Shown piece by piece: positions 2,920-49,491 of a DNA stretch of 64,000 nucleotides. The position numbers were made by a program, and so were the translations under genes. Each line of letters starts with the position of its first letter. Positions within the stretch are counted from its first letter, which is position 1. The stretch comes from Chloroflexi bacterium HGW-Chloroflexi-2. GTDB lineage: Bacteria; Chloroflexota; Anaerolineae; Anaerolineales; Anaerolineaceae. The notes beneath the pieces are model-generated. The model saw only the letters and a program-made list of their open reading frames with translations. It was not told the origin of the DNA and made no database searches. The stretch spans positions 1 to 64,000 of the forward strand of contig PHBY01000019.1 of assembly GCA_002840735.1 (NCBI GenBank), read 5' to 3'.

Positions 2920-4893
2920 ATGGATCAATCTCAATTAAGCTGGATCACCAATTTCATCTGGGGAATTGCCGATGATGTGTTGCGTGATCTGTATGTGCGC
3001 GGTAAGTACCGTGATGTGATCCTCCCGATGATCGTTGTTCGCCGACTGGATACCTTGCTAGAACCCACCAAGCAGGCAGTGCTGGAATTAAAAGCCCTGT
3101 TGGATCGCGAGGGGATTGTTAATCAGGATCAGGCTTTACGCCAGACAGCCGGGCAGGCTTTCTATAACACCTCTCCTTTTACGATGCGTGATTTACGCGC
3201 GCGTGCCAGCCAGCAGCAATTGAAGGCGGATTTTGAAGCTTACCTCAATGGGTTTTCACCGAATGTGCAGGATATATTAGAGAAATTCGAGTTCCGCAAT
3301 CAGATTCCAAGACTCTCGAAAGCAGATGCCCTGGGTACATTGATTGAGAAATTCCTTTCCCCTGAAATCAACCTTTCCCCCAATCCGGTCATGAATGGAA
3401 ATGACACCATCAAGCAACCCGGCTTGGATAATCATGCCATGGGGACGATCTTTGAAGAATTGGTGCGGCGATTTAACGAGGAAAACAACGAGGAAGCCGG
3501 CGAGCACTGGACGCCACGTGATGCGGTTAAGTTGATGGCGAAACTGATCTTTCTTCCAATCGCCGATACGATTGAATCGGGCACGTATCTGCTCTATGAT
3601 GGTGCTTGCGGAACGGGTGGTATGCTGACGGTGGCGGAAGATACCCTAAAACAACTGGCAGCTCAAACTGGCAAACAGGTCTCCACTCATCTGTATGGGC
3701 AGGAGATCAATGCTGAGACGTATGCCATCGCCAAAGCGGATTTACTGCTGCAGGGCGAGGGTGAAGCGGCCGATAATATCGTTGGTGGCCCGGAATTCTC
3801 GACGCTCTCCAATGATGCCTTCCCGGCTCAGGAGTTCGACTTCATGCTCTCCAATCCACCTTATGGCAAAAGCTGGAAGAGCGACCTCGAGCGCATGGGT
3901 GGCAAGGATGGCATTAAAGACCCGCGTTTCATCATCCAGCATGCCGGTGACCCGGAGTACTCGTTGCTGACGCGTTCCTCCGATGGACAATTGCTCTTCC
4001 TGGTCAATTTGGTCAGCAAGATGAAACACAAGACTGCGCTCGGTAGCCGGATCGCTGAGGTGCATAATGGTTCCTCGCTCTTCACCGGGGATGCCGGGCA
4101 GGGTGAAAGCAATATTCGGCGTTGGATCATCGAGAATGACAGGCTGGAAGCAATTGTGGCATTACCTTTGAATATGTTCTATAACACTGGCATTGCCACC
4201 TACATCTGGGTGCTGAGCAATCGTAAACCAGCGCACCGGCGTGGCAAGGTGCAATTGATCGACGCCACCCAGTGGTACACACCTTTGCGCAAAAACCTGG
4301 GCAAGAAGAATTGCGAACTCTCCGAGGAGAACATTCAGCAGATTTGTGATACCTTCTTGCGCTTTGAAGAAAGCGAACAATCGAAAATCTTCCCCAATCA
4401 AGCCTTTGGTTACTGGAAGGTGACGGTTGAACGGCCTTTACGCTTGCAGGGGATCGACCCAAATAGGGTATATTCATCTAAAGAAATCAAGACCCTCAAA
4501 GAAAATCATGAACGTGCTGAGGATGCGCCAGCGGTGATCAAGAAAATTCACAAACGCGGTACTCAGCCCAACCCGCTCAAAGGTTTATTTGAAACCATGG
4601 TGGATGGTAAGCCTTGTGTGGTGGAATATGAACCCGACCCGGACCTGCGTGACACGGAACAGATTCCTTTGTTGGAAGAAGGTGGCATCGATGCTTTCTT
4701 GAAACGAGAAGTGCTGCCTTATGCCCCGGATGCCTGGTACACACCGGAGAGTGTCAAGATTGGTTATGAGATCAGCTTCACCCGTTATTTTTACAAACCG
4801 CAACCCATGCGCACTCTGGAAGAAATCCGTGCGGAAATTCTGGCTTTGCAGAAAGAGACAGAGGGTTTGTTGGATGAAATTTTAGGAGAATAA
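2920..4893 (+). CDS. hsdM: Type I restriction-modification DNA methyltransferase subunit
   Basis: Modification subunit of a type I restriction system. It transfers a methyl group from S-adenosylmethionine to adenine in the sequence chosen by HsdS. The 657-residue protein has an N-terminal helical HsdM_N region, the SAM-binding motif DGACGTGGML at about residue 227, and the catalytic NPPY at residue 312, as expected for N6-adenine methylases. It begins an operon with the DUF262 gene (5-base gap), hsdS and hsdR. Its base composition is clearly richer in GC than the DUF262 gene that follows and is similar to hsdR. Confidence 0.95.
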   Translation: MDQSQLSWITNFIWGIADDVLRDLYVRGKYRDVILPMIVVRRLDTLLEPTKQAVLELKALLDREGIVNQDQALRQTAGQAFYNTSPFTMRDLRARASQQQLKADFEAYLNGFSPNVQDILEKFEFRNQIPRLSKADALGTLIEKFLSPEINLSPNPVMNGNDTIKQPGLDNHAMGTIFEELVRRFNEENNEEAGEHWTPRDAVKLMAKLIFLPIADTIESGTYLLYDGACGTGGMLTVAEDTLKQLAAQTGKQVSTHLYGQEINAETYAIAKADLLLQGEGEAADNIVGGPEFSTLSNDAFPAQEFDFMLSNPPYGKSWKSDLERMGGKDGIKDPRFIIQHAGDPEYSLLTRSSDGQLLFLVNLVSKMKHKTALGSRIAEVHNGSSLFTGDAGQGESNIRRWIIENDRLEAIVALPLNMFYNTGIATYIWVLSNRKPAHRRGKVQLIDATQWYTPLRKNLGKKNCELSEENIQQICDTFLRFEESEQSKIFPNQAFGYWKVTVERPLRLQGIDPNRVYSSKEIKTLKENHERAEDAPAVIKKIHKRGTQPNPLKGLFETMVDGKPCVVEYEPDPDLRDTEQIPLLEEGGIDAFLKREVLPYAPDAWYTPESVKIGYEISFTRYFYKPQPMRTLEEIRAEILALQKETEGLLDEILGE

Positions 4894-37068: not shown

Positions 37069-37999
37069 TCGCATCTTTGTTTTAGGAACACGAAAATCCA
37101 AACTTGCATTGTGGCAAGCAAATCATGTCGGCCAATCACTTCAGTACATCCAGCCAGGGTTTCAATTTCGACTGGAAACTTTTATCACCACAGGAGATAT
37201 AAAACTGGATCAACCACTACCTGAAATCGGTGGTAAAGGGTTGTTCACCCAGGAATTGGAACATGCTCTTCAAACGGGAGCCATTGATTTTGTGGTGCAT
37301 TCCCTCAAAGATTTGCCAGTGGATGACACAGCCGGCTTATCAATTTCCTCCATTCCATTACGGGAAAATCCAAAAGATGTACTGATTGCAAAACAAAAAT
37401 GCAACTTGATGAATTTACCCCAGGGGGCCAAAGTAGGCACATCCAGTTTGCGCAGAAGCGCTCAATTGCTACATATACGACCCGACCTGGTTTTATTGCC
37501 TCTGCGTGGTAATATCGATACCCGCATTCAGAAAGCTTTGAATGGTGAATATAATGCCATTATTTTAGCAGCTGCAGGTGTTTATCGCCTGGGTTTACAG
37601 GAGTATGTGCAGGAGGAATTATCCATGGAGATCATGTTGCCAGCCCCTGGCCAGGGTGCATTAGCCATTCAATCTCGCAAAAATGATAAAACCTTAAATT
37701 CGATTCTATCAACCATTGAGGACAAAAATACCCGCCATGCTGTCATTGCAGAGCGTTCATTTCTGAAAAATCTCGGTGGTGGATGTTCAGCGCCTGTAGC
37801 TGCCTATGCATACATCAAGGATGACCTTCTCTATATGGATGGACTGGTAGCTTCAGTAGAGGATGAAAAAATCTTACGAGTAAATGGAAGTTGTAAAAAC
37901 ACACTGGATCAAGCATCACAACTGGGAATGGCGTTAGCAGGAGCAATCTTGCGGCGTGGGGCAAAAAAATTAATGCAGATGGATAAAGGAGCATCCTAA
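37061..37999 (+). CDS. hemC: Porphobilinogen deaminase (hydroxymethylbilane synthase)
   Basis: The enzyme joins four porphobilinogens into hydroxymethylbilane using a covalent dipyrromethane cofactor. The attachment Cys is C242 in NLGGGCSAPVAAYA, the same position as in E. coli. GTRKSKLALWQ opens the protein, and KDLPV, GTSSLRRSAQL and LRGNIDTRI are present. The ATG at 37,061 overlaps the last eight bases of hemA, so translation is coupled. A TTG further upstream would add 18 residues with no family match. Length is 312 residues. Confidence 0.95.
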   Translation: MTDRIFVLGTRKSKLALWQANHVGQSLQYIQPGFQFRLETFITTGDIKLDQPLPEIGGKGLFTQELEHALQTGAIDFVVHSLKDLPVDDTAGLSISSIPLRENPKDVLIAKQKCNLMNLPQGAKVGTSSLRRSAQLLHIRPDLVLLPLRGNIDTRIQKALNGEYNAIILAAAGVYRLGLQEYVQEELSMEIMLPAPGQGALAIQSRKNDKTLNSILSTIEDKNTRHAVIAERSFLKNLGGGCSAPVAAYAYIKDDLLYMDGLVASVEDEKILRVNGSCKNTLDQASQLGMALAGAILRRGAKKLMQMDKGAS

Positions 38000-38775
38000 T
38001 GTTATTGGGTAAACGTGTCCTGGTAACCCGGCCTGCTCATCAGACTGAACAATTCATCAATCATTTAAGAACATTAGGCGCAGATCCGGTTTTATTTCCT
38101 ACAACCAGGATCGTTCCGGATTCTGATCAACTAATCCGTTTCCGTAGAGAATTGGAACAATTGGATCCATATCAGTGGATAATTTTTACCAGCCAGAATA
38201 CCGTCCATTTGTTTTGGGAAGAATTCCAGAAATCAGAATGCTCCATCGATTATTTAAAAAACGTAAAAATAGCTGCCATCGGACCAGCGACCAGGCAGGC
38301 ATTGAATGAATGTGGAATTGCTGTGGATGTCATGCCAGAAAAATTTATTGGAGAAGAGATCGTTAGTACACTTGGGAATATTGAAGGCAACCTCATTCTT
38401 CTTCCCCGTGCAGAAAGTGCCCGGGAAGAATTGTTGAAAGCATTATTACAAAACAAAGCGGTTGTGCATGAGTTTCCCCTGTATAAATCCGTCACAAACT
38501 CACCGGATTCGCAAGCATGGAAAGAATTGGAAACAGGTGTGGACTTTGTCACCTTTACCAGTGCTTCTACAGTGCATGGTTTTTTTGATCTTTTGGGAGA
38601 TCGAGCTAAAACTTATTTATCGCAAACAATCATTGCCTGCATTGGACCCATTACAGCAAACGCTCTGGAACCATATGGAATGACTGCCCAGATTGTTGCG
38701 GAAACTTATACAACCAAAGGGCTGGTTGAATCCATTCTGTCGTTCGCTGGCAATCACAATCGAAAGGTGCATTGA
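37999..38775 (+). CDS. hemD: Uroporphyrinogen-III synthase
   Basis: A 258-residue protein that closes and inverts ring D of hydroxymethylbilane. The family is poorly conserved. Visible features are [36 protein letters not shown] at the start, [13 protein letters not shown], and [14 protein letters not shown] in the second lobe. Start and stop overlap hemC (TAATG) and hemB (TGATG), which supports the assignment strongly. Confidence 0.92.
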
Positions 38776-39821
38776 TGAAAATGAATAGCCAATACAAACC
38801 AAATCTACCCACTTCCTTAAAGTCACGTCCCCGCCGGCTTCGCATATCTCCTGGAATCAGGAGCATGGTGCGAGAAACAAGACTGGAATCCAGTGATTTT
38901 ATATATCCTATATTTGTCAAGCATGGAAAAGGGATAAAGCAGGAAATCAGTTCGATGCCTGGCGTTTTCCAGTGGTCACCTGACCTGCTGGCTGATGAAA
39001 CTAAAAGTATCTCTGAATTGGATATTCCAGCAGTCATCCTGTTTGGCATCCCTGCATCCAAAGACCCCATTGGGTTAGAAAATTTTTCAGATCAGGGAAT
39101 CATCCAGCAGAGTATTCGGGTCATTAAACAATCTGTTCCAGAAATGATCGTGATCACTGATGTGTGTTTATGCGAATACACGGATCATGGCCATTGTGGT
39201 ATTTTAAATCTGGGTGAAAATAGAAACCCAAATTTACCGGAAGGGTACGTCCTGAATGATGAAACCCTGGAAATTCTGGCAAAAGTAGCGGTTTCCCACG
39301 CTCAGGCTGGAGCAGATATGGTTGCCCCCTCTGGAATGATGGATGGTATGGTAGCTGCTATTCGCAATGGATTGGATGCACACCACTTCGAACACATTCC
39401 GATCCTGTCCTACTCAGTGAAATATGCCTCTTCCTTTTATGGTCCCTTCCGCGAAGCGGCTCAGGGAACACCCAGGTTTGGTGACCGGCAGAGCCATCAA
39501 ATGGACCCTGCAAACATACGTGAAGCCTTGCGGGAAGCCGCACTGGATGTACAGGAAGGTGCTGATGCTCTCATGGTAAAACCTGCCCTGGCATACCTGG
39601 ACGTGATCCATCTATTAAGACAGACCTACCCTGAACTTACTCTGGCTGCATACAACGTCAGTGGCGAATATGCCATGATCAAAGCGGCTGCTGTCAATGG
39701 TTGGCTGGAGGAACGCCGCACAATATTGGAAATCTTAATCAGTATGAAACGTGCGGGAGCTGACTTAATCATCACCTATCATGCCAAAGAGGCTGCTCGG
39801 TGGCTTAAGGAGAATCAATAA
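38775..39821 (+). CDS. hemB: Delta-aminolevulinic acid dehydratase (porphobilinogen synthase)
   Basis: Condenses two 5-aminolevulinates into porphobilinogen. The two Schiff-base lysines are K216 (SYSVKYASS) and K269 ([13 protein letters not shown]). The zinc site is present as C131, C133 and C141 in [14 protein letters not shown], so this is a zinc-dependent form. ATG 38,775 overlaps the hemD stop by one base. A TTG one codon earlier is possible. Length is 348 residues. Confidence 0.95.
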
Positions 39822-39822
39822 A

Positions 39823-40875
39823 ATGGAAGTCCAAGAACCCTCATTCACATTTTTACGTGCCTGTAAAAGATTACCGGTGGATTACACACCGATCTGGTTT
39901 ATGCGCCAGGCTGGTCGTTATATGGCAGAATATCGGAAAATTCGAGAAAAATACACTTTATTGGAGATTTGTGCAATTCCTGAATTAGCAACCGAAGTGA
40001 CCCTGCAACCTATCCGAGCTTTTGGATTTGATGCTGCCATTTTATTTGCAGATATTCTCCTACCATTAATTCCCATGGGCATCAACCTGGAATTTGCTGC
40101 CGGTGAAGGGCCGGTCATTCACAACCCTGTTCGTACTGCTATGGACGTAGATCAACTTCGAAGAATAAATCCCCATGAAGATCTGGCACACGTATTGAAA
40201 GCAGTCCAATTTATTTCATCGGAGTTGGCAGGAAAAACGCCATTAATTGGTTTTGCCGGTGCGCCATTTACATTGGCCAGCTATCTGATAGAGGGTGGAC
40301 CTTCCAATAATTTTTTGAAAACCAAAGGGCTGATGGTTGAACAACCGCAGGTTTGGGATCAGATGATGAACCTCCTGGCTGAGGTGGTTGCAGACTTCTT
40401 ATTAGCACAAATTGATGCTGGTGCTCAGGCAATCCAACTCTTCGATAGCTGGGCAGGGTCAGCCTTGAGCCCGGATGATTACAGACAATATGCGCTACCT
40501 TACTCTCAGAGGATTTTTAATAATATTCTTCAAACAGGTGTGCCGACCATCCATTTTTCCGTAGGTGCTGGCACATATCTACCTTTAATAAAAGAAGCGG
40601 GCGGCGATGTCATTGGTCTGGATTGGCGTACACCCATAGACTGGGGCAGAAATATTCTAGGAACAGAGGTCGCTGTTCAGGGTAATCTGGATCCAGCTGC
40701 CCTTTTTGTACCTCAAAAACATCTGAAACAAAAAATCCAAAAAATCCTCGATCAGGCAAATAACCAACCCGGCCACATATTCAATCTTGGGCATGGTATT
40801 TTGCCACAGACACCAGTGGATAATGTAAAAGCATCTGTGGAAATCGTCCATGAATTAAGTCAAAGGAAGGTCTAA
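39823..40875 (+). CDS. hemE: Uroporphyrinogen decarboxylase
   Basis: Removes four acetate carboxyls from uroporphyrinogen III to give coproporphyrinogen III. The 350-residue protein shows the substrate-binding WFMRQAGRYMAEYR, FADILLP, IGFAGAPFTLASYLIEGG and FNLGHGILPQTPVDNV. ATG 39,823 is one base after the hemB stop and has AAGGAGA upstream. An earlier in-frame ATG at 39,781 lies within hemB and is less likely. Confidence 0.95.
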   Translation: MEVQEPSFTFLRACKRLPVDYTPIWFMRQAGRYMAEYRKIREKYTLLEICAIPELATEVTLQPIRAFGFDAAILFADILLPLIPMGINLEFAAGEGPVIHNPVRTAMDVDQLRRINPHEDLAHVLKAVQFISSELAGKTPLIGFAGAPFTLASYLIEGGPSNNFLKTKGLMVEQPQVWDQMMNLLAEVVADFLLAQIDAGAQAIQLFDSWAGSALSPDDYRQYALPYSQRIFNNILQTGVPTIHFSVGAGTYLPLIKEAGGDVIGLDWRTPIDWGRNILGTEVAVQGNLDPAALFVPQKHLKQKIQKILDQANNQPGHIFNLGHGILPQTPVDNVKASVEIVHELSQRKV

Positions 40876-40878
40876 CCC

Positions 40879-42165
40879 ATGCAATCAAAAAATATCACCC
40901 GATCAGAAGAATTATTTTTAAAAGCACAAACGCTGCTTCCTGGCGGGGTTGATTCCCCTGTACGTGCATTTCGTTCTGTTGGTAGCCAGCCATTATTTAT
41001 CGATCGAGGTGAGGGGGCTTATGTCTTTGACGTGGATGGTAATCGTTATCTTGACTATGTCCTGTCCTGGGGACCACTCATTCTGGGGCATGCCAATGAT
41101 GCTATTTCCCGCGTTATCTGTGAAACCGCCCGGAAAGGCACCAGCTTTGGCGCACCTAGTCCCCTGGAATTGGAACTTGCCAAACGGGTGATGGGATTTT
41201 ATCCGAGCATGGAACGCGTTCGTTTTGTCAACTCCGGTACAGAAGCGACTATGTCGGCGATACGATTGGCGCGTGCTTATACAAAACGGGACTATATCAT
41301 TAAATTCGAAGGCTGCTATCACGGTCATGCCGATATTTTCCTGGTACAGGCAGGTTCAGGTGTGGCAACCCTGGGATTACCCGATTCACCCGGTGTACCA
41401 GCTGCAACAGCCAATCAAACCCTGATCGCTCCTTATAATGACCTGGAAGCTGTCAAGAAGATTTTCCAAAATTATCCCCAACAAATCGCCGCCATCATCG
41501 TTGAACCAGTGGCCGGCAACATGGGGGTTGTTCCCCCTGTGGAAGGTTTTTTGCAAGGATTAAGAACACTGTCTGAAGAATACAACGCATTATTAATCTT
41601 TGATGAAATCATGACCGGGTTCCGTGTTCATCGTGGCGGAGCACAGGCACTTTATAACATCAAACCCGATCTTACCACGCTGGGCAAAGTAATCGGTGGT
41701 GGCGTGCCTGTAGGTGCTTTTGGCGGGAGACAGGAAATTATGGATTTAATCGCTCCGGCAGGGCCGGTTTACCAGGCCGGTACTTTCTCAGGAAACCCTC
41801 TTGCCATGGCAGCCGGTGTGGAAATCTTACAAATTCTGGATAACCCTGCTGTTTGGGAAAATCTAAACGCTCGTTCCAATCAACTCAAAGAGGGTGTTAT
41901 ATCCATCCTGCGAAGGAAAGCTCTAAATTATCAATTACAAAGTGTCGGTAGCATGTTTACCTTATTCTTCGCTGAAAATCCCGTAACGAATTGGACAACT
42001 GCCAGCCTGGCAAACCGGGAGAAATATGCTCAATTTTTCCGGAACATGCTGGATTATGGTGTTTATCTGGCTCCGTCTCAATTTGAAGCAGGCTTTCTAT
42101 CCAGCATGCATGGCGAACATGAGATTCTGTTTACTTTGGAAGCAATAGAAAAGTCATTGGTTTAG
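40879..42165 (+). CDS. hemL: Glutamate-1-semialdehyde 2,1-aminomutase
   Basis: PLP enzyme that turns glutamate-1-semialdehyde into 5-aminolevulinate, acting right after HemA. The 428-residue protein has the PLP Lys at K270 (TTLGKVIGGGVPVGAFGG) and FDEIMTGFRVHRGGAQ, FVNSGTEATMSAIRLARA and YHGHAD. It closes the heme run three bases after hemE. With it, the run supplies every enzyme from glutamyl-tRNA to heme b. Confidence 0.95.
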   Translation: MQSKNITRSEELFLKAQTLLPGGVDSPVRAFRSVGSQPLFIDRGEGAYVFDVDGNRYLDYVLSWGPLILGHANDAISRVICETARKGTSFGAPSPLELELAKRVMGFYPSMERVRFVNSGTEATMSAIRLARAYTKRDYIIKFEGCYHGHADIFLVQAGSGVATLGLPDSPGVPAATANQTLIAPYNDLEAVKKIFQNYPQQIAAIIVEPVAGNMGVVPPVEGFLQGLRTLSEEYNALLIFDEIMTGFRVHRGGAQALYNIKPDLTTLGKVIGGGVPVGAFGGRQEIMDLIAPAGPVYQAGTFSGNPLAMAAGVEILQILDNPAVWENLNARSNQLKEGVISILRRKALNYQLQSVGSMFTLFFAENPVTNWTTASLANREKYAQFFRNMLDYGVYLAPSQFEAGFLSSMHGEHEILFTLEAIEKSLV

Positions 42166-42604: not shown

Positions 42605-42632
42605 TTGCTTTTTTTTCACTTCTCCATATAAT
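42605..42632 (+). promoter_or_regulatory. Promoter of the ECF transporter operon
   Basis: TTGCTT (42,605-42,610) and a perfect TATAAT (42,627-42,632) with a 16-base spacer. Transcription should start near 42,639, just before an AGGAGG. Confidence 0.55.
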
Positions 42633-42649
42633 CATCTCAAAGGAGGCAT

Positions 42650-42676
42650 ATGTATTTTATTTACCATCATACCTGA
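42650..42676 (+). CDS. Possible eight-codon leader peptide
   Basis: ATG at 42,650 follows AAAGGAGG by three bases and reads MYFIYHHT, stop. The predicted transcript begins almost at the Shine-Dalgarno sequence. Two adjacent His codons and three aromatic codons recall attenuator peptides. The last codons (ACCTGA) contain ACCTG, able to pair with CAGGT in the antiterminator strand. The spacing is tight, so translation is uncertain. Confidence 0.4.
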   Translation: MYFIYHHT

Positions 42677-42770
42677 AGTTATCTAAATGGTGCCTTGGTG
42701 CACCGATGTGCAGTTTGTACATACAGGTCTGATGGGATAAACACCATCTAAAAACCCGTTCCTTCTGGAG

Positions 42771-42804
42771 CGCCACCTGTATGTGCAAGTGGCGTTTTTT
42801 TTTT
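42771..42804 (+). terminator. Intrinsic terminator in the ECF operon leader
   Basis: Stem CGCCAC/GTGGCG, extended by TG/CA pairs past one mismatch, followed by an uninterrupted T10 tract. It lies 40 bases before the first gene's ATG, a position typical of transcription attenuation. Confidence 0.8.
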
Positions 42805-42843
42805 ATTTATGAATAATCTTGTATCAAAAACCAGGAGGAATAA

Positions 42844-43194
42844 ATGGAATTATCAGCTCTAGATACTGTAGTATTGGTTACCCGAAATGGCATGGGGGAT
42901 TCAGATTCAGTCTTGCAACAAAATTTAATTGTTAAGTATTTTTCATTACTTAACGAAAATAACATCCTGCCATCCGTGATCTGCTTTTATACGGAGGGAA
43001 TAAAATTGGCAGTCACCGGTTCACCTGTTTTGGAACAGCTCAAAGATTTAGAAAGGAAAGGTGTGCACCTGATCTTATGTGGCACCTGCCTTGGACATTA
43101 CAACCTGACTGATCAGGTGCAGGTCGGGATTGTGGGTGGCATGACCGATATCATTGAAGCCCAGTTTAGAGCAAAAAAGGTGATCTCTATCTAA
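42844..43194 (+). CDS. DsrE-family protein, YedF C-terminal type
   Basis: A 116-residue protein matching the C-terminal DsrE-like domain of selenium-associated YedF: VVLVTRNGMGDSDSVLQQNLI, SVICFYTEGIKLAVTGSPVLEQLKDLERKGVHLILCGTCLGHYNL. It lacks the N-terminal TusA/SirA domain. Two Cys in the CGTC motif could carry a persulfide or selenide. GGAGG precedes the ATG. The co-transcribed genes are a DUF296 protein and an ECF transporter, so it may handle a sulfur- or selenium-containing nutrient. That is inference. Confidence 0.8.
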   Translation: MELSALDTVVLVTRNGMGDSDSVLQQNLIVKYFSLLNENNILPSVICFYTEGIKLAVTGSPVLEQLKDLERKGVHLILCGTCLGHYNLTDQVQVGIVGGMTDIIEAQFRAKKVISI

Positions 43195-43203
43195 AGGAGT
43201 GCT

Positions 43204-43614
43204 ATGAAACCCCACGTCCTTCGCTTGCATCCAGGTCAGGATTTAAAAGCTGCTATTGACACATTTTTAGTTGAAAATGAGATCGCTGCTGGATGCGTTG
43301 TGACCTGTGTTGGCAGTTTACGAAAGGCTAATTTAAGATTTGCCAACCAGGAAACAGGAACAATTTTGACAGGCTTTTTCGAAATTGTTGCGCTCACCGG
43401 TGTGCTTTCTTCTTCCGGCTCCCATTATCATATTGCCATTGCCGATGAACAGGGCAAAGTCTATGGCGCTCACTTGTTGGATGGTAGCGAAATTTATACA
43501 ACTGCTGAACTTGTTGTGTTGCAATTCGAAGAATACCAATTTGAAAGGATCATGGATCAAGAATCCGGATATCCAGAACTTCATCCAATTTTAATCAATC
43601 AAAAGGAGAGTTAA
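43204..43614 (+). CDS. DUF296 (PPC/PCC domain) protein
   Basis: This 136-residue protein is a stand-alone PPC domain: HPGQDLKAAIDTFLVENEI, TCVGSLRKANLRFA, FEIVALTGVLSSSGSHYHIAIAD, GAHLLDGSEIYTTAELVVLQ. Bacterial versions form trimers with a conserved His pair (HYH near 74-76) that may bind metal. Function is unknown. The nine-base gap to the DsrE gene suggests shared regulation. Confidence 0.85.
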   Translation: MKPHVLRLHPGQDLKAAIDTFLVENEIAAGCVVTCVGSLRKANLRFANQETGTILTGFFEIVALTGVLSSSGSHYHIAIADEQGKVYGAHLLDGSEIYTTAELVVLQFEEYQFERIMDQESGYPELHPILINQKES

Positions 43615-43615
43615 T

Positions 43616-44206
43616 ATGTCCACTGTAAACCAATCTAAGAAATTCTTTTCCACTATGACATTAACCTTAATGGCAGTAGCAATTGTTATTAATATGGTCC
43701 TTGGCCAAATCGCATCCATACTCAAATTACCCATCTTTCTGGATTCCATCGGTACAGTGTTGGTAGGTATACTGGCTGGCCCCTGGGCGGGTGGTCTTAC
43801 TGGGTTAATCACAAATCTATTATGGGGGCTGATCTCCGATCCTGTATCAGCAGCTTTCGCGCCCGTGGCTGCGATGATCGGTATTGCTGCAGGGTTGTGT
43901 GCAAAATTCGGATTGTTCAAAACCTGGTGGAAAGCCATCATTAGCGGCGTGATCATCTCTGTTGCCCTGGCAATCATCGCTGTTCCCATCCGTCTGTATA
44001 TGTTTGGTGGTCTCACCGGCAGTGGTTCCGATTTCATAACTGCTTACTTTCTGGCGTTAGGCAGAGATCTGTTTGGGGCCGTCATTATTCAGGTAATCAC
44101 ATCTAATCTGGTAGATAAAGTCGTTACCGCTTTGATCAGTTGGGGTATCATAAAAGCATTGCCAAATCGGTTTGTATCAAGGTTCCCTGGCGCAGATAAG
44201 GTTTGA
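43616..44206 (+). CDS. ECF transporter substrate-binding (S) component, unknown substrate
   Basis: A 196-residue membrane protein with about six helices and the S-component hallmark region LDSIGTVLVGILAGPWAGGLTGLITNLLWGLI. The EcfT and two EcfA genes directly follow, so a complete energy-coupling-factor transporter is encoded. I cannot match it confidently to the thiamine, biotin, folate, queuosine or cobalt groups. The neighbouring DsrE protein hints at a sulfur-related vitamin precursor. It overlaps the start region of EcfT. Confidence 0.82.
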   Translation: MSTVNQSKKFFSTMTLTLMAVAIVINMVLGQIASILKLPIFLDSIGTVLVGILAGPWAGGLTGLITNLLWGLISDPVSAAFAPVAAMIGIAAGLCAKFGLFKTWWKAIISGVIISVALAIIAVPIRLYMFGGLTGSGSDFITAYFLALGRDLFGAVIIQVITSNLVDKVVTALISWGIIKALPNRFVSRFPGADKV

Positions 44207-44208
44207 TC

Positions 44209-45000
44209 ATGTTTGAACCTCACAGCCTGTACATCACTGGCAAAGGCACTTTTTATTCATTGCACCCACTCACAAAATTAAGTGGTGTACTGGCTGTAGC
44301 GCTCCTGGTTTTCCTGGGACCTGGAGAAACTGAAAAAATTATTCTTATTGGCTTGCTTATTTTCTTGACTGCTGTGTGGGCAGGTCTTCTTCTGCCATCC
44401 ATTAAAACAACAATAAAACTGCTGCTCCCGTTGTTGATTGTACTGGTTGTTGTTCAAGGATTTTTCTATCCTCAAAACACTACTATTCTTTTTTCTTTAG
44501 GAAAATATGAATATGCATGGGAAGGATTCCTGTATGCGTTATTCGTAACTGCCCGTATTGGCGTGATTTTATTGGCTTCTTTGCTATTTCTGTTTTCCAC
44601 AAAACTTTCCGATTTCAGCAGAGCGCTGACAATTTCCGGATTATCGTCCGGACTGGTATATTTGATCGTCAGCCCTATCTATATGCTGCCTGATTTTGCA
44701 GATCGCATCCACCGTATCAGGGAATCGCAACAATCCAGAGGCCTGGATATAGAAGGCAATTTTCTGGTTCGGATTAAAGCGCTCTTCCCGCTGGTTGCTC
44801 CTCTCATTCTGGGAGCATTAGTTGAAACAGAAAGTAGAGCTTTGATTCTGGAAACCAGAGCGTTTAATGCCATCGGGAAGAGATCCAGTCTGGTGGAAAT
44901 CTATCTATCCAGACGCGAACGAGTTCTCCAAATTTTATTACTGACAGTTGCTTTGATCTTATCGGTGATTGGCATTATCGAAAGGGCGTTATTTTTATGA
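44209..45000 (+). CDS. ecfT: ECF transporter transmembrane protein EcfT (CbiQ family)
   Basis: A 263-residue membrane scaffold that couples the two ATPases to the S-component. It has four or more hydrophobic helices and coupling helices with the RESQQSRGLD (ArgGly-type) and ETRAFNAIGKRSS motifs, as in EcfT. ATG 44,209 is preferred over the in-frame TTG six bases upstream, which lies on the S-component stop. The end overlaps ecfA1 by four bases. Confidence 0.9.
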   Translation: MFEPHSLYITGKGTFYSLHPLTKLSGVLAVALLVFLGPGETEKIILIGLLIFLTAVWAGLLLPSIKTTIKLLLPLLIVLVVVQGFFYPQNTTILFSLGKYEYAWEGFLYALFVTARIGVILLASLLFLFSTKLSDFSRALTISGLSSGLVYLIVSPIYMLPDFADRIHRIRESQQSRGLDIEGNFLVRIKALFPLVAPLILGALVETESRALILETRAFNAIGKRSSLVEIYLSRRERVLQILLLTVALILSVIGIIERALFL

Positions 45001-45869
45001 GCACTCCGCCCATCATTCAGCTGGATGAGGTTCACTTCACCTATTCTGGGGGTTCTCATTCAGCACTCTCAGCCATTACACTGAGTATTCAACCAGGTGA
45101 AATCATTGGAATTATCGGAGCAAACGGAGCAGGAAAATCCACACTTTGCTATTTACTGGCAGGCTTAATCCCTTCTTTTTTCAATGGGAATTTTTCCGGC
45201 ACAGCAACCATAAATGACAAAGAGATCGCGAATATCGATGCCAACAAACTCCCTTATCTGGTTGGTTTGGTGCTGCAGAACAGCAGATTACAACTTTCTC
45301 ACATGTGCAATACTGTTTATGAAGAAGTTGCCTTCGGTCTGGAAAATTTGGGTGTGCCCAGGGAAATTATGCTTAAAAAAATTGACCAGGCACTTAAAAT
45401 GACTGGTATATCTCACATGGCAGAACGTTCTCCATATACCTTATCTGGTGGTGAACAACAACGCTTAGCCATTGCTTCCATTCTGGCGATGGATTCACCG
45501 GTGTTGATTTTTGATGAACCTACTTCTTTATTGGACCCTGTTGGCCGTAGAGAAGTTCTTTCAGTGATTATGAATTTATCCAAATCTGGTCATACCATCA
45601 TCATTGCTGAAAACCACCTTGAATGGATAGCAGAATACACCGATCGAGTAGTTGCATTGGAAGCAGGAAAAATCTTAGTACAAGGAGATCCAAAAGAGAT
45701 AATGAGTCTCCCTGAAATTCAATCCTCTGGAATAGGCTGGACCCGTTTTACACAGGCTTCAGCCTTGTATCTTGAAAAAACAAAATCCGGGAGTCCTAAT
45801 CGTTTACCAATAACGCTTGAACAGGCTATCCATTTTTTCCAAACAGAACAAGGTAATCATGGAAATTAA
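44997..45869 (+). CDS. ecfA1: ECF transporter ATPase EcfA1
   Basis: A 290-residue ABC ATPase. Walker A is GANGAGKST, the signature is intact (LSGGEQQRLAIASILAMD), Walker B is VLIFDEPTSLLDP, and the switch His is in the IIAENHLEWI segment. It pairs with EcfA2 to power uptake. Its final 11 bases overlap ecfA2. Confidence 0.93.
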   Translation: MSTPPIIQLDEVHFTYSGGSHSALSAITLSIQPGEIIGIIGANGAGKSTLCYLLAGLIPSFFNGNFSGTATINDKEIANIDANKLPYLVGLVLQNSRLQLSHMCNTVYEEVAFGLENLGVPREIMLKKIDQALKMTGISHMAERSPYTLSGGEQQRLAIASILAMDSPVLIFDEPTSLLDPVGRREVLSVIMNLSKSGHTIIIAENHLEWIAEYTDRVVALEAGKILVQGDPKEIMSLPEIQSSGIGWTRFTQASALYLEKTKSGSPNRLPITLEQAIHFFQTEQGNHGN

Positions 45870-46656
45870 TATTAACCATATTTCATTTCAATATCCAAAT
45901 GGTTATCCAGCACTACGTGATGTACATTTAAATATACCTTCAGAACAACATATCGCATTGATAGGACACAATGGGTGTGGAAAAACAACCCTTGCGCGGT
46001 GTATTAAAGGATTGCTTCACCCAACCAATGGAGAAATTTTATTGGATGGCAAATCAATTCGAAATGAAAAAATATCTTCCCTGGCACACAAGGTTGGTTT
46101 TGTTTTCCAACATCCTGATGACCAGATATTTCATCAAACGGTGTATCAGGAAGTTGCTTTTGGCCCGAAAAATCTTGGTATGTCTGGGGAAGTTCAGGTT
46201 GAAAAGATAAAAGAAGCTCTTGCATTAACCGGATTGGAAAACGAAAAAACAACCCATCCTTATGATCTGAGTCTCTCTGCCAGAAAACGAATCGCCATCG
46301 CATCAACCCTTGCCATGGATACGGACATCATCATTTTTGATGAACCCACAGCCGGAATGGATCATAAAGAATTAACGTTAATGAAAGTAATCTTTCAAGA
46401 ACTTCGCAACAAGAAAAAAACAATCATCACAATTTCACATGATATGGACCTGGTATTGGAACAAAGTGATCAACTGGCTATTATGGCTGCAGGCCAAATC
46501 GTTAAAGTTGGCGATCCCGTTATACTTTTTCGCGATATGGAGGAAAATTTTTCTGAAATGGTTGCTCCACAAATGGTACGCTTGTCGCAGAGGGTTTTAA
46601 AAAATAATAAAACTGCCAAAACAGTGGATCAATTTGTTGATTTTCTAATCCAATAG
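45859..46656 (+). CDS. ecfA2: ECF transporter ATPase EcfA2 with degenerate signature motif
   Basis: A 265-residue ABC ATPase with Walker A GHNGCGKTT, the Q-loop FQHPDDQIFHQT and Walker B IIIFDEPTAGMD. The ABC signature reads LSLSARKR instead of LSGGQ-like, so one of the two composite ATP sites would be weakened. Many heterodimeric ABC ATPases have one non-canonical site. ATG 45,859 overlaps the ecfA1 end. An upstream TTG would add 14 residues and is not favoured. Confidence 0.9.
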   Translation: MEININHISFQYPNGYPALRDVHLNIPSEQHIALIGHNGCGKTTLARCIKGLLHPTNGEILLDGKSIRNEKISSLAHKVGFVFQHPDDQIFHQTVYQEVAFGPKNLGMSGEVQVEKIKEALALTGLENEKTTHPYDLSLSARKRIAIASTLAMDTDIIIFDEPTAGMDHKELTLMKVIFQELRNKKKTIITISHDMDLVLEQSDQLAIMAAGQIVKVGDPVILFRDMEENFSEMVAPQMVRLSQRVLKNNKTAKTVDQFVDFLIQ

Positions 46657-48639: not shown

Positions 48640-49056
48640 TTAGAAAATTTGAGTGTGCTTACTTAAGAATTCATCAGGAGATAAAACCTGGATGTTAAAT
48701 CTTTGAAGATATTGAAAATGCTTAAAATTGCCCGAGATCAAAATGACATTCTTATTGATGGCTAATTCAGCAAAGGGTATGTCACCTTCATCAATAATTT
48801 CATATTGGGAAAAATTAACTGGTGTGCATTCAATCCAAACGGAAGAGAAAGCAATAAAACTTAATACTGCATCAGCACGATCCTTTGGAATATTCAATTT
48901 TGGTCGATGTAGTACATCCTGATATTCTTTAAATACTCTTTCATCAATAACCAAATGGATTTTTCTCATCAAAATTGCATCAATGATTTGTTCTGGTTTA
49001 CTGTTACGTTTAAGAAGTCCTGAGACGAGAACATTTGTATCTAAGACTATTAGCAT
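48640..49056 (-). CDS. PIN-domain toxin (COG1569 family)
   Basis: A 138-residue PIN nuclease with acidic residues D6 (LDTNVLVSG), the central Glu of VFKEYQDVL and D-I-PFAEL near 91. It is a putative RNase toxin. Its start codon directly abuts the antitoxin stop, and both read on the minus strand. Confidence 0.88.
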   Translation of the reverse strand: MLIVLDTNVLVSGLLKRNSKPEQIIDAILMRKIHLVIDERVFKEYQDVLHRPKLNIPKDRADAVLSFIAFSSVWIECTPVNFSQYEIIDEGDIPFAELAINKNVILISGNFKHFQYLQRFNIQVLSPDEFLSKHTQIF

Positions 49057-49476
49057 CTAGCGCTGTTTCCTCACTTCATGAATTTCGGTTTGAATGTCTT
49101 CATCTGTGATTTCATAAGTGGGAGATGATTCAGCGATTAGTCGAATTGATTCCACGGCTGCCTGTGCTTGAAGTTGAAGAGCCTGGTAAAGCAGGTCGCG
49201 TTCTTCCTGGCTAAGATTGAATTCTGTCATCAACTGGTCAGAACCTGTAATTTTTGCACGAGTCAATACCTGCTCTATCTTAATTCCTCTGGAATTGAGA
49301 CTCTTACCAAGAATGACCAGCAAATCATCAGCCGCCGACCCAAGAGGCTTGATAATTACACCATTTTCAGTGCTTATAAATGTAACTAAATCACCTTTTT
49401 TAAGCTTCAATTGGCGACGAATATCTCTCGGGATAGTCACCTGTCCTTTTTCCTGTACTCTAACAGTTGTAATCAT
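49057..49476 (-). CDS. AbrB/SpoVT-type antitoxin of the PIN toxin
   Basis: A 139-residue protein with an N-terminal SpoVT-AbrB swapped-hairpin DNA-binding domain (TVRVQEKGQVTIPRDIRRQLKLKKGDLV) and a C-terminal tail for toxin binding. ATG 49,476 follows GGAGG. A TTG four codons earlier is part of the ribosome site. It probably represses its own promoter: a TATAAT on the minus strand (49,510-49,515) and direct repeats GTCATAC (49,492 and 49,500) lie just upstream. Confidence 0.88.
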   Translation of the reverse strand: MITTVRVQEKGQVTIPRDIRRQLKLKKGDLVTFISTENGVIIKPLGSAADDLLVILGKSLNSRGIKIEQVLTRAKITGSDQLMTEFNLSQEERDLLYQALQLQAQAAVESIRLIAESSPTYEITDEDIQTEIHEVRKQR

Positions 49477-49491
49477 ATGGACCTCCAAAAA

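Follow-up and report, generated by a model that had tools for sequence, protein, structure and literature searches.

A UGA-containing leader peptide upstream of an ECF transporter operon in Chloroflexota: a candidate attenuator that would sense selenium through selenocysteine recoding

Within the 64,000 nucleotides of contig PHBY01000019.1 analysed here (hereafter the window), Chloroflexi bacterium HGW-Chloroflexi-2 carries an ECF transporter operon behind a structured leader with a short open reading frame, and the locus raises the question of what this leader senses. The operon lies entirely on the + strand. It opens with a DsrE/YedF C-terminal-like protein (42844..43194; PF02635, 33 bits; TIGR03527, 106.4 bits, below the cut-off of 110) and a PCC (DUF296-type) domain protein (43204..43614; PF03479, 100.6 bits), followed by a CD3073-like ECF S component (43616..44206; PF12822, 47.9 bits; NF045596, 145 bits, below the cut-off of 180), a T component (44209..45000; PF02361, 62.4 bits) and two ECF ATPases (44997..45869; PF00005, 101 bits; TIGR04520, 207 bits, below the cut-off of 315; and 45859..46656; PF00005, 113 bits; TIGR04521, 231 bits, below the cut-off of 330). 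Just upstream of the leader ends a group of heme biosynthesis genes (37999-42165), which by resemblance we take to be hemD, hemB, hemE and hemL, and further downstream lies a probable toxin/antitoxin gene pair on the - strand (48640-49488), presumably a PIN-domain toxin with an AbrB-type antitoxin.

The leader follows a probable promoter read from the sequence (42605..42632), with TTGCTT at 42605-42610, a 16-nt spacer and TATAAT at 42627-42632; its -35 box matches the consensus at only three of six positions, and a consensus promoter scan did not list it. A seven-base Shine-Dalgarno match, AAGGAGG (42640..42646), precedes an ATG at 42650 that opens the first part of a leader peptide, MYFIYHHT (42650..42673), recognized by ORF reading and by alignment with the ...Y-R/H-H-T/I-UGA and ...HRRT-UGA endings of relatives. 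A UGA follows (42674..42676), which conservation and the spacing of the hairpin behind it mark as the proposed selenocysteine codon and switch point, and the same frame then continues for 24 codons to a TAA at 42749-42751 (42677..42751). Within this continuation lie hairpin 1 (42688..42705; TGGTGC-CTTGGT-GCACCG), which by spacing and covariation occupies the SECIS position with a 6-nt loop 17 nt past the UGA, and hairpin 2 (42706..42722; ATGTGCA-GTT-TGTACAT), which by its sequence and by comparison with SelD hairpins is an alternative SECIS candidate, its loop 36 nt past the UGA. Hairpin 2 is mutually exclusive with an antiterminator whose 5' arm (42715..42728) also lies in the read-through frame and whose 3' arm (42775..42788) is the end of the terminator 5' arm plus the loop; the repeat finder, the duplex test and covariation all place these arms. 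The intrinsic terminator (42767..42804; stem 42767-42776/42789-42798), seen in the sequence, by script and in folding, reads GGAGCGCCAC(CTGTATGTGCAA)GTGGCGTTTT with ten T at 42,795-42,804, and was unlisted in a promoter/terminator scan with a loop limit of 8. The two antiterminator arms form a 14-nt inverted repeat, 93% complementary, with 13 Watson-Crick pairs and one G-U, and constitute the only repeat of at least 10 nt listed between 42,600 and 42,850; the leader as a whole folds at z = -2.8, with 0 of 200 shuffles equally good. The sequence-only reading of this stretch had described an attenuator-like leader in which a 14-position antiterminator competes with a T10 terminator behind an AGGAGG-ATG frame encoding MYFIYHHT, and each of these elements proved real and common to relatives, the competition of helices being borne out by the repeat finder, the duplex test and covariation. 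That reading did not include the SECIS-like hairpins that follow the UGA, nor the extension of the frame by 24 codons to the TAA.

Relatives were sought first by the S component alone and afterwards in named genomes. Among S-component loci, upstream regions were read in 14 of 80 contigs, with L001-L030 handled by script and six of them also by eye. Every DsrE-type Chloroflexota locus read, that is, one in which DsrE neighbours the S gene or PCC (the window, L014, L035, L036, L040, L041, L044 and L047), has a short ORF with the Y-R/H-H-T/I ending or a similar one, a UGA and a GC hairpin, as do, in the same order of elements, the PCC-first Chloroflexota loci L037 and L039. No clear leader was seen at a DsrE locus of a beta-proteobacterium (L108) or at any of eight PCC-S loci read in other phyla, where PCC-S operons occur without it. 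PCC-S-T-A-A operons are also found in Proteus, Providencia, Brucella, Paracoccus and others (several of L056-L111). One of the DsrE-type loci, L036, also holds a Cobalamin riboswitch match on its - strand (1-100; 35 bits, cut by the locus end). Screening 396 class genomes with a covariance model built from 11 leaders gave 24 further UGA leaders among the matches read, most of them in a second, more conserved form (...HRRT-UGA-xxxxGAGWRPQ...GGG...P). A 33-leader model was then applied to 400 genomes of the phylum; 16 new loci were read, and two of these, from a Dehalococcoidia-like genus, proved to have the leader (L149 and L150; HRRT-UGA leader at 1501-1561). The leaders accepted from the models come from matches that were read, with L161-L172 and lower-scoring matches left out. 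Matches judged to be chance once read comprised L137, L139 and L141-L144, 18 of 20 regions from one batch, and L145-L148 with L151-L160. In 148 Desulfobacterota genomes and a further 8 genomes, a leader model (R2) gave no match, a result of little weight since this model also misses many leaders within the class. The main set so defined holds 37 Chloroflexota leaders, including the window and L049, and 36 of them carry the UGA; with 16 from a search starting at YedE (below), 52 distinct UGA leaders were seen in total. A third form (GGAGGTGA, ...R(K/R)T-UGA, with a GATGCACGGGxTGCATC-type hairpin) was seen at L218, L221, L223 and L239, outside the models built here.

The UGA stands at the switch position in 36 of the 37 leaders, and what follows it behaves as an open frame. 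Frame 0 closes 24-26 codons past the UGA in 30 of 37 leaders, whereas neither of the other frames does so in any; stops earlier than codon 24 are found in frame in 2 of 37, as against 17 and 17 in the other two frames. Insertions of 24 nt (L136) and 75 nt (L135) preserve the frame to the second stop. In the 13 leaders of equal length to which the test was confined, the synonymous share of single-difference codons past the hairpin is 0.44 in frame 0 versus 0.26 and 0.25 in the others, which supports coding but falls short of proof because the leaders are related and their bases here are under structural constraint at the RNA level as well. The UGA of the window peptide (42,674-42,676) is thus probably, judged from these comparisons, a selenocysteine codon and not an ordinary stop. 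The one exception in the main set, L049, recovered again as L122 in the 396-genome search, has TGT at the UGA position (3326-3328) and retains the hairpin and terminator, with no start codon nearby; it was therefore rejected as a clean Sec/Cys pair and is probably a decaying leader remnant.

Behind the UGA, a 6-nt loop placed exactly 17 nt on, with a stem of at least 5 bp, occurs in 31 of 36 UGA leaders versus 14 of 4,069 other TGAs within the same loci. Many of these leaders were found with models that include the hairpin, so that the S-component-defined leaders form a less biased subset; the strict form is present in 8 of these 10 (L039 and L040 being the exceptions), and while the pattern had been noticed in six of the ten, the other four, read later, all have it. 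Across 33 leaders, all six pairs of the stem show double changes, with 97% of cells paired and 0 of 500 shuffles as good. Departures are the spacing of 20-21 nt and missing terminator in L039, the mismatched stem of L040, and L132, in which no terminator was found. The published bSECIS model allows a stem of 4-16 bp, a loop of 3-9 nt and a spacing of 16-37 nt, and requires a G in the first two loop positions, as given in PMC13188914. Hairpin 1 of the window, with 6 bp and 17 nt of spacing, lies within the limits for stem, loop and spacing, but its loop, CUUGGU, has no G in the first two positions and is atypical next to the usual leader loops CGGUUG, AGGUCU and AAGUUU. The GUU loop of hairpin 2, unlike that of hairpin 1, does satisfy the G requirement, and it is of the same type as the loop of the SelD hairpin in the same genome (tcgcaAGTTttgcga), so that hairpin 2 (42,706-42,722) may be the real SelB site; in a second genome of the window's genus (G002), an AAGUUU loop is found in the leader as well as in SelD. 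Under the full bSECIS rule, including the G, some hairpin passes in 35 of 36 leaders, yet so do 841 of the 4,069 background TGAs.

The genes behind the leaders are mostly selenium genes, namely YedE, SelD and YedF-like DsrE, while the ECF genes are linked by association only. The first gene is YedE in 19 of the 37 (a fragment in L131 and cut by the contig end in L119; identified by HMM in three and by tblastn in the others), DsrE in 8, PCC in 4, SelD in 1 and a double-cubane-cluster anaerobic reductase in 2, with another gene or the contig end in 3. The start of the first gene of L130 resembles a cysteine desulfurase that lies beside SelD in L128; that of L134 is weakly CbiR-like, and L135 is cut. 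The reductase was identified at 488 bits in L149 and by similarity to L149 in L150; a dicubane protein is provisionally linked to selenium in PMC10418091, and we read double-cubane and dicubane as one family. In Desulfobulbales, a PCC-S-ECF operon that has no such leader is immediately preceded by a double-cubane reductase gene (L042, 2289-3566; L052, 2268-3407), an arrangement that suggests that the ECF system is tied to selenium or sulfur metabolism there too. In five genomes (G475, G267, G159, G248 and G225), SelD is found on the contig of the leader, no more than about 3 kb behind it (SelD loci L207 and L210-L213 pair with leaders L131, L120, L128, L116 and L124), and the leader may also control these SelD genes.

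The association with YedE was also approached in reverse, by protein search in 120 genomes of the class, of which only 24 have YedE (24 loci). By eye, a UGA leader precedes YedE at 22 of the 24 loci, 16 of these leaders being additional to the first 37; of the other two, L216 is uncertain and L219 has YedE inside an operon. Only 6 of the 22 are among the accepted matches of the 396-genome model search, a measure of the sensitivity of that model. Under a fixed rule (a ribosome site, 6-15 codons, a stop, and a hairpin with G at the loop start 16-27 nt on), the 24 YedE upstream regions gave UGA in 16 and TAA or TAG in none, whereas 662 control upstream regions gave UGA in 8, TAA in 2 and TAG in 0, the count of 8 being if anything too high since the controls include loci with true leaders. 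The leaders newly found in this way are looser. Their hairpins are spaced at 17-26 nt, those of L218 and L228 being weak, and of the 13 read only 6 have a frame that closes at 24-26 codons (it does so after 1 codon in L224 and 125 in L222). Two closely spaced UGA codons stand upstream of some YedE genes, as RQT-UGA-L-UGA (L224/L227) or HHR-UGA-I-UGA (L230/L232), and such pairs might make for a steeper switch.

These observations bear on the alternative that survives best, namely that the peptide is a UGA-terminated arrest peptide of the TnaC type, whose ...HRRT/YRHT end would stall the ribosome at the UGA on some signal and thereby free the antiterminator with no selenocysteine inserted. The strong conservation of the residues just before the UGA would be expected of such a peptide, as would a hairpin near the edge of a ribosome sitting there. 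It would nonetheless leave unexplained why a constrained frame stays open for 24-26 codons in most leaders, why the hairpin is of SECIS type with SelD-like loops and why selenium genes follow, and we regard an arrest peptide as unlikely.

The remaining elements of the leader, the terminator and its competitor, are also shared. A terminator past the second stop was found by script in 32 of 37 leaders, and one is visible by eye in L133, L134 and L179, which are among the five that the script missed. The antiterminator arises from pairing between a stretch of the read-through ORF, located about 41 nt past the UGA, and the 5' arm plus loop of the terminator; the ORF thus contains the antiterminator 5' arm and closes before the terminator. 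In the window this duplex is predicted at -22.4 kcal/mol, and 1 of 200 shuffles is as strong. When L039 and L132 are left out for want of a terminator and the terminators of L133, L134 and L179 are assigned manually, 29 of 35 leaders have a duplex stronger than shuffles (z < -2); this version of the test replaced one with the terminator arm alone, the loop omitted, which had given a weak result (-24.4 versus -20.4 for shuffles). The sequence-only reading had named a lack of covariation in homologous leaders as what would speak against it, and covariation is present. In 20 of the 37 leaders, registered by hand, 16 of them distinct and the window included, all nine antiterminator positions show double changes, with 98.6% paired and 0 of 1,000 shuffles as good, the paired fraction being in part a matter of construction since register and pairing guided the manual choice of the 9-mers (15 of 20 lie at +41 past the UGA). 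Equilibrium folding of the window gives a terminator probability of 0.00 for RNA freed from the UGA onwards, and of 0.95 for RNA freed only past the second stop. Other leaders are mixed: with the window counted, the terminator probability is at most 0.5 in only 14 of 32 with the RNA free from the UGA, which is to say that the antiterminator outcompetes the terminator at equilibrium in only these, and at least 0.9 in 26 of 32 with the RNA free past the second stop.

It is this placement of the antiterminator that counts against a further alternative, in which SelB would bind the hairpin as an operator and exert control without recoding, or in which the switch would have the opposite sense. A SECIS-type hairpin is indeed located in the leader, and the direction proposed here is one that we infer, but a frame that passes the UGA and ends just before the terminator would be pointless for an operator, the antiterminator arm lies inside that frame, and we give this alternative only a slim chance. 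It is also conceivable that the functional product is a small selenocysteine-containing protein of about 33-36 residues and that the terminator is incidental, as the GAGWRPQ...GGG residues conserved past the UGA in one leader family might indicate; between families, however, the sequence past the UGA is poorly alike and the shared bases are those of the hairpin and the antiterminator, which makes such a protein very improbable. An ordinary metabolite riboswitch or T-box before a vitamin transporter, as the ECF genes and the structured leader might suggest, is hardly credible, given that no Rfam family reaches its gathering score in the window leader (the top sub-threshold match being Esr41, at 20.4 bits versus a cut-off of 102) and none matches in the leaders of 16 loci scanned, that the conserved structures are a short codon-tied hairpin and an antiterminator inside an ORF, and that the same leader also precedes YedE and SelD.

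The earlier impression that the leader resembles no known riboswitch class, which a T-box or riboswitch covariance model might have contradicted, therefore holds up. The suggestion of a ligand-sensing or translation-coupled element is retained in its second half; sensing of a vitamin or other ligand by the RNA, like sensing of histidine, finds no support because the conserved features are a UGA, a SECIS-type hairpin and an open frame, mostly before selenium genes. Attenuation at His codons was rejected since these codons are not conserved, the HH before the UGA of the window being replaced by RH, HR, RY, NL or RR in other leaders.

A leader of the kind proposed would require selenocysteine machinery. 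The genome of the window has SelB (350 bits), SelA (546 bits) and tRNA-Sec (69.9 bits), and its SelD gene contains one internal TGA, followed by a SECIS-like hairpin; we take this TGA to be the Sec/Cys position. SelD with one internal TGA was found in 18 of 19 leader genomes tested, these being drawn from the 33 of the tRNA-Sec scan. In that scan, 26 of 33 leader genomes have a tRNA-Sec of at least 66 bits, a line of our own choosing, as no score fell between 51 and 66 bits; 30 of the 33 pass the cut-off of the family itself, but so do 5 of 14 control genomes. SelB is over its cut-off in 25 of 26 class genomes with a model-found leader (G174 being the single exception) as against 313 of 396 class-wide, and it is weak evidence because SelB is common in the class anyway. 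SelB was not found in G009, G174 and G175, and SelA is present in all three. Within the combinations of leader genome and pathway component that were checked, no leader lay in a genome that proved devoid of the entire selenocysteine pathway.

Taken as a whole, the data allow a model to be drawn in which the leader is, very probably, a ribosome-mediated transcription attenuator that senses by selenocysteine recoding of a UGA. This model proposes that a ribosome initiates on the leader ORF and that, where selenium is present and SelB:Sec-tRNA available, the hairpin behind the UGA serves as a SECIS and the UGA is read as selenocysteine. The ribosome would then cross the antiterminator 5' arm and halt at the second stop; as a result the terminator would form and the operon would be OFF. 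Where selenium is scarce, the ribosome would terminate, or wait, at the UGA, leaving the 5' arm free to capture the terminator arm and loop, so that the antiterminator would form and the operon would be ON. The UGA, the open frame, the hairpins, the antiterminator, the terminator, the linked genes and the selenocysteine machinery can be read directly from the genomes; read-through, its dependence on SelB and its direction we infer from their arrangement. Such read-through and direction would fit the rise of the yedE transcript upon selenium depletion in Methanococcus maripaludis, although control in that archaeon must differ; deletion of yedE there leaves the use of every tested selenium species in place (both PMC11097638).

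In the window, the ECF operon would on this model import a selenium compound, perhaps in the place that YedE holds in relatives, the substrate being suggested by the company that the leader keeps. YedE is over its cut-off in none of 8 genomes with an ECF-type leader, which fits a replacement of YedE by the ECF operon but hardly supports it because only 24 of the 120 class genomes have YedE. If the model is true, the DsrE-PCC-ECF operon would be a candidate dedicated uptake system for a selenium compound, of which we are less sure than of the switch itself. The leader would in turn be a testable selenium sensor whose logic favours uptake as the role of YedE; it flags the ECF system as a new candidate and may be used as a marker for further selenium genes. 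It is likely, in our estimation, that it represents a first class of switch in which expansion of the genetic code is itself the sensor, the choice between stop and selenocysteine at a UGA deciding transcription, and the recoding of a stop codon would then serve as a regulatory decision. No description of a Sec-codon attenuator or of an ECF selenium transporter was found in the open-licence PMC literature, among the papers listed.

Comparison with known systems places the leader among attenuators. In attenuation of the trp/his type, the position of the ribosome on a leader ORF selects between an antiterminator and an intrinsic terminator, and the present leader is alike in its ORF, in that choice and in having genes for acquisition of the sensed amino acid downstream; it differs in that a decision between stop and selenocysteine at a UGA with its own SECIS would take the place of stalling at sense codons, and in that read-through would be the repressing path. 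In prfB, an autoregulatory frameshift at a UGA within the gene itself senses RF2, and there too an in-frame UGA near the start acts as a sensor of decoding capacity, whereas the present leader is proposed to sense selenium, by transcription attenuation and with no frameshift. The E. coli selAB leader holds a SECIS-like element that has been proposed as a SelB operator, which resembles the present leader in its SelB-binding hairpin (here a candidate) and in feedback on selenocysteine genes; it is not known to have either read-through of a leader UGA or an antiterminator/terminator pair, both of which are proposed here. The bSECIS elements of selenoprotein mRNAs share with it the UGA and the ranges of stem, loop and spacing, with a G at the loop start in most bSECIS members (PMC13188914), but here the element lies in a leader peptide instead of an enzyme and overlaps an attenuator, and the first loop of the window itself departs. 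The YedE/YedF system comprises the genes that the leader would control in many relatives, and a YedF-like DsrE heads the operon of the window; the available portion of PMC5322559 describes no cis-regulation of these genes and proposes, as a hypothesis, a role for them in export, whereas uptake is implied here. The device is accordingly a form of attenuation made of known parts, and it is not categorically new because each part is already known.
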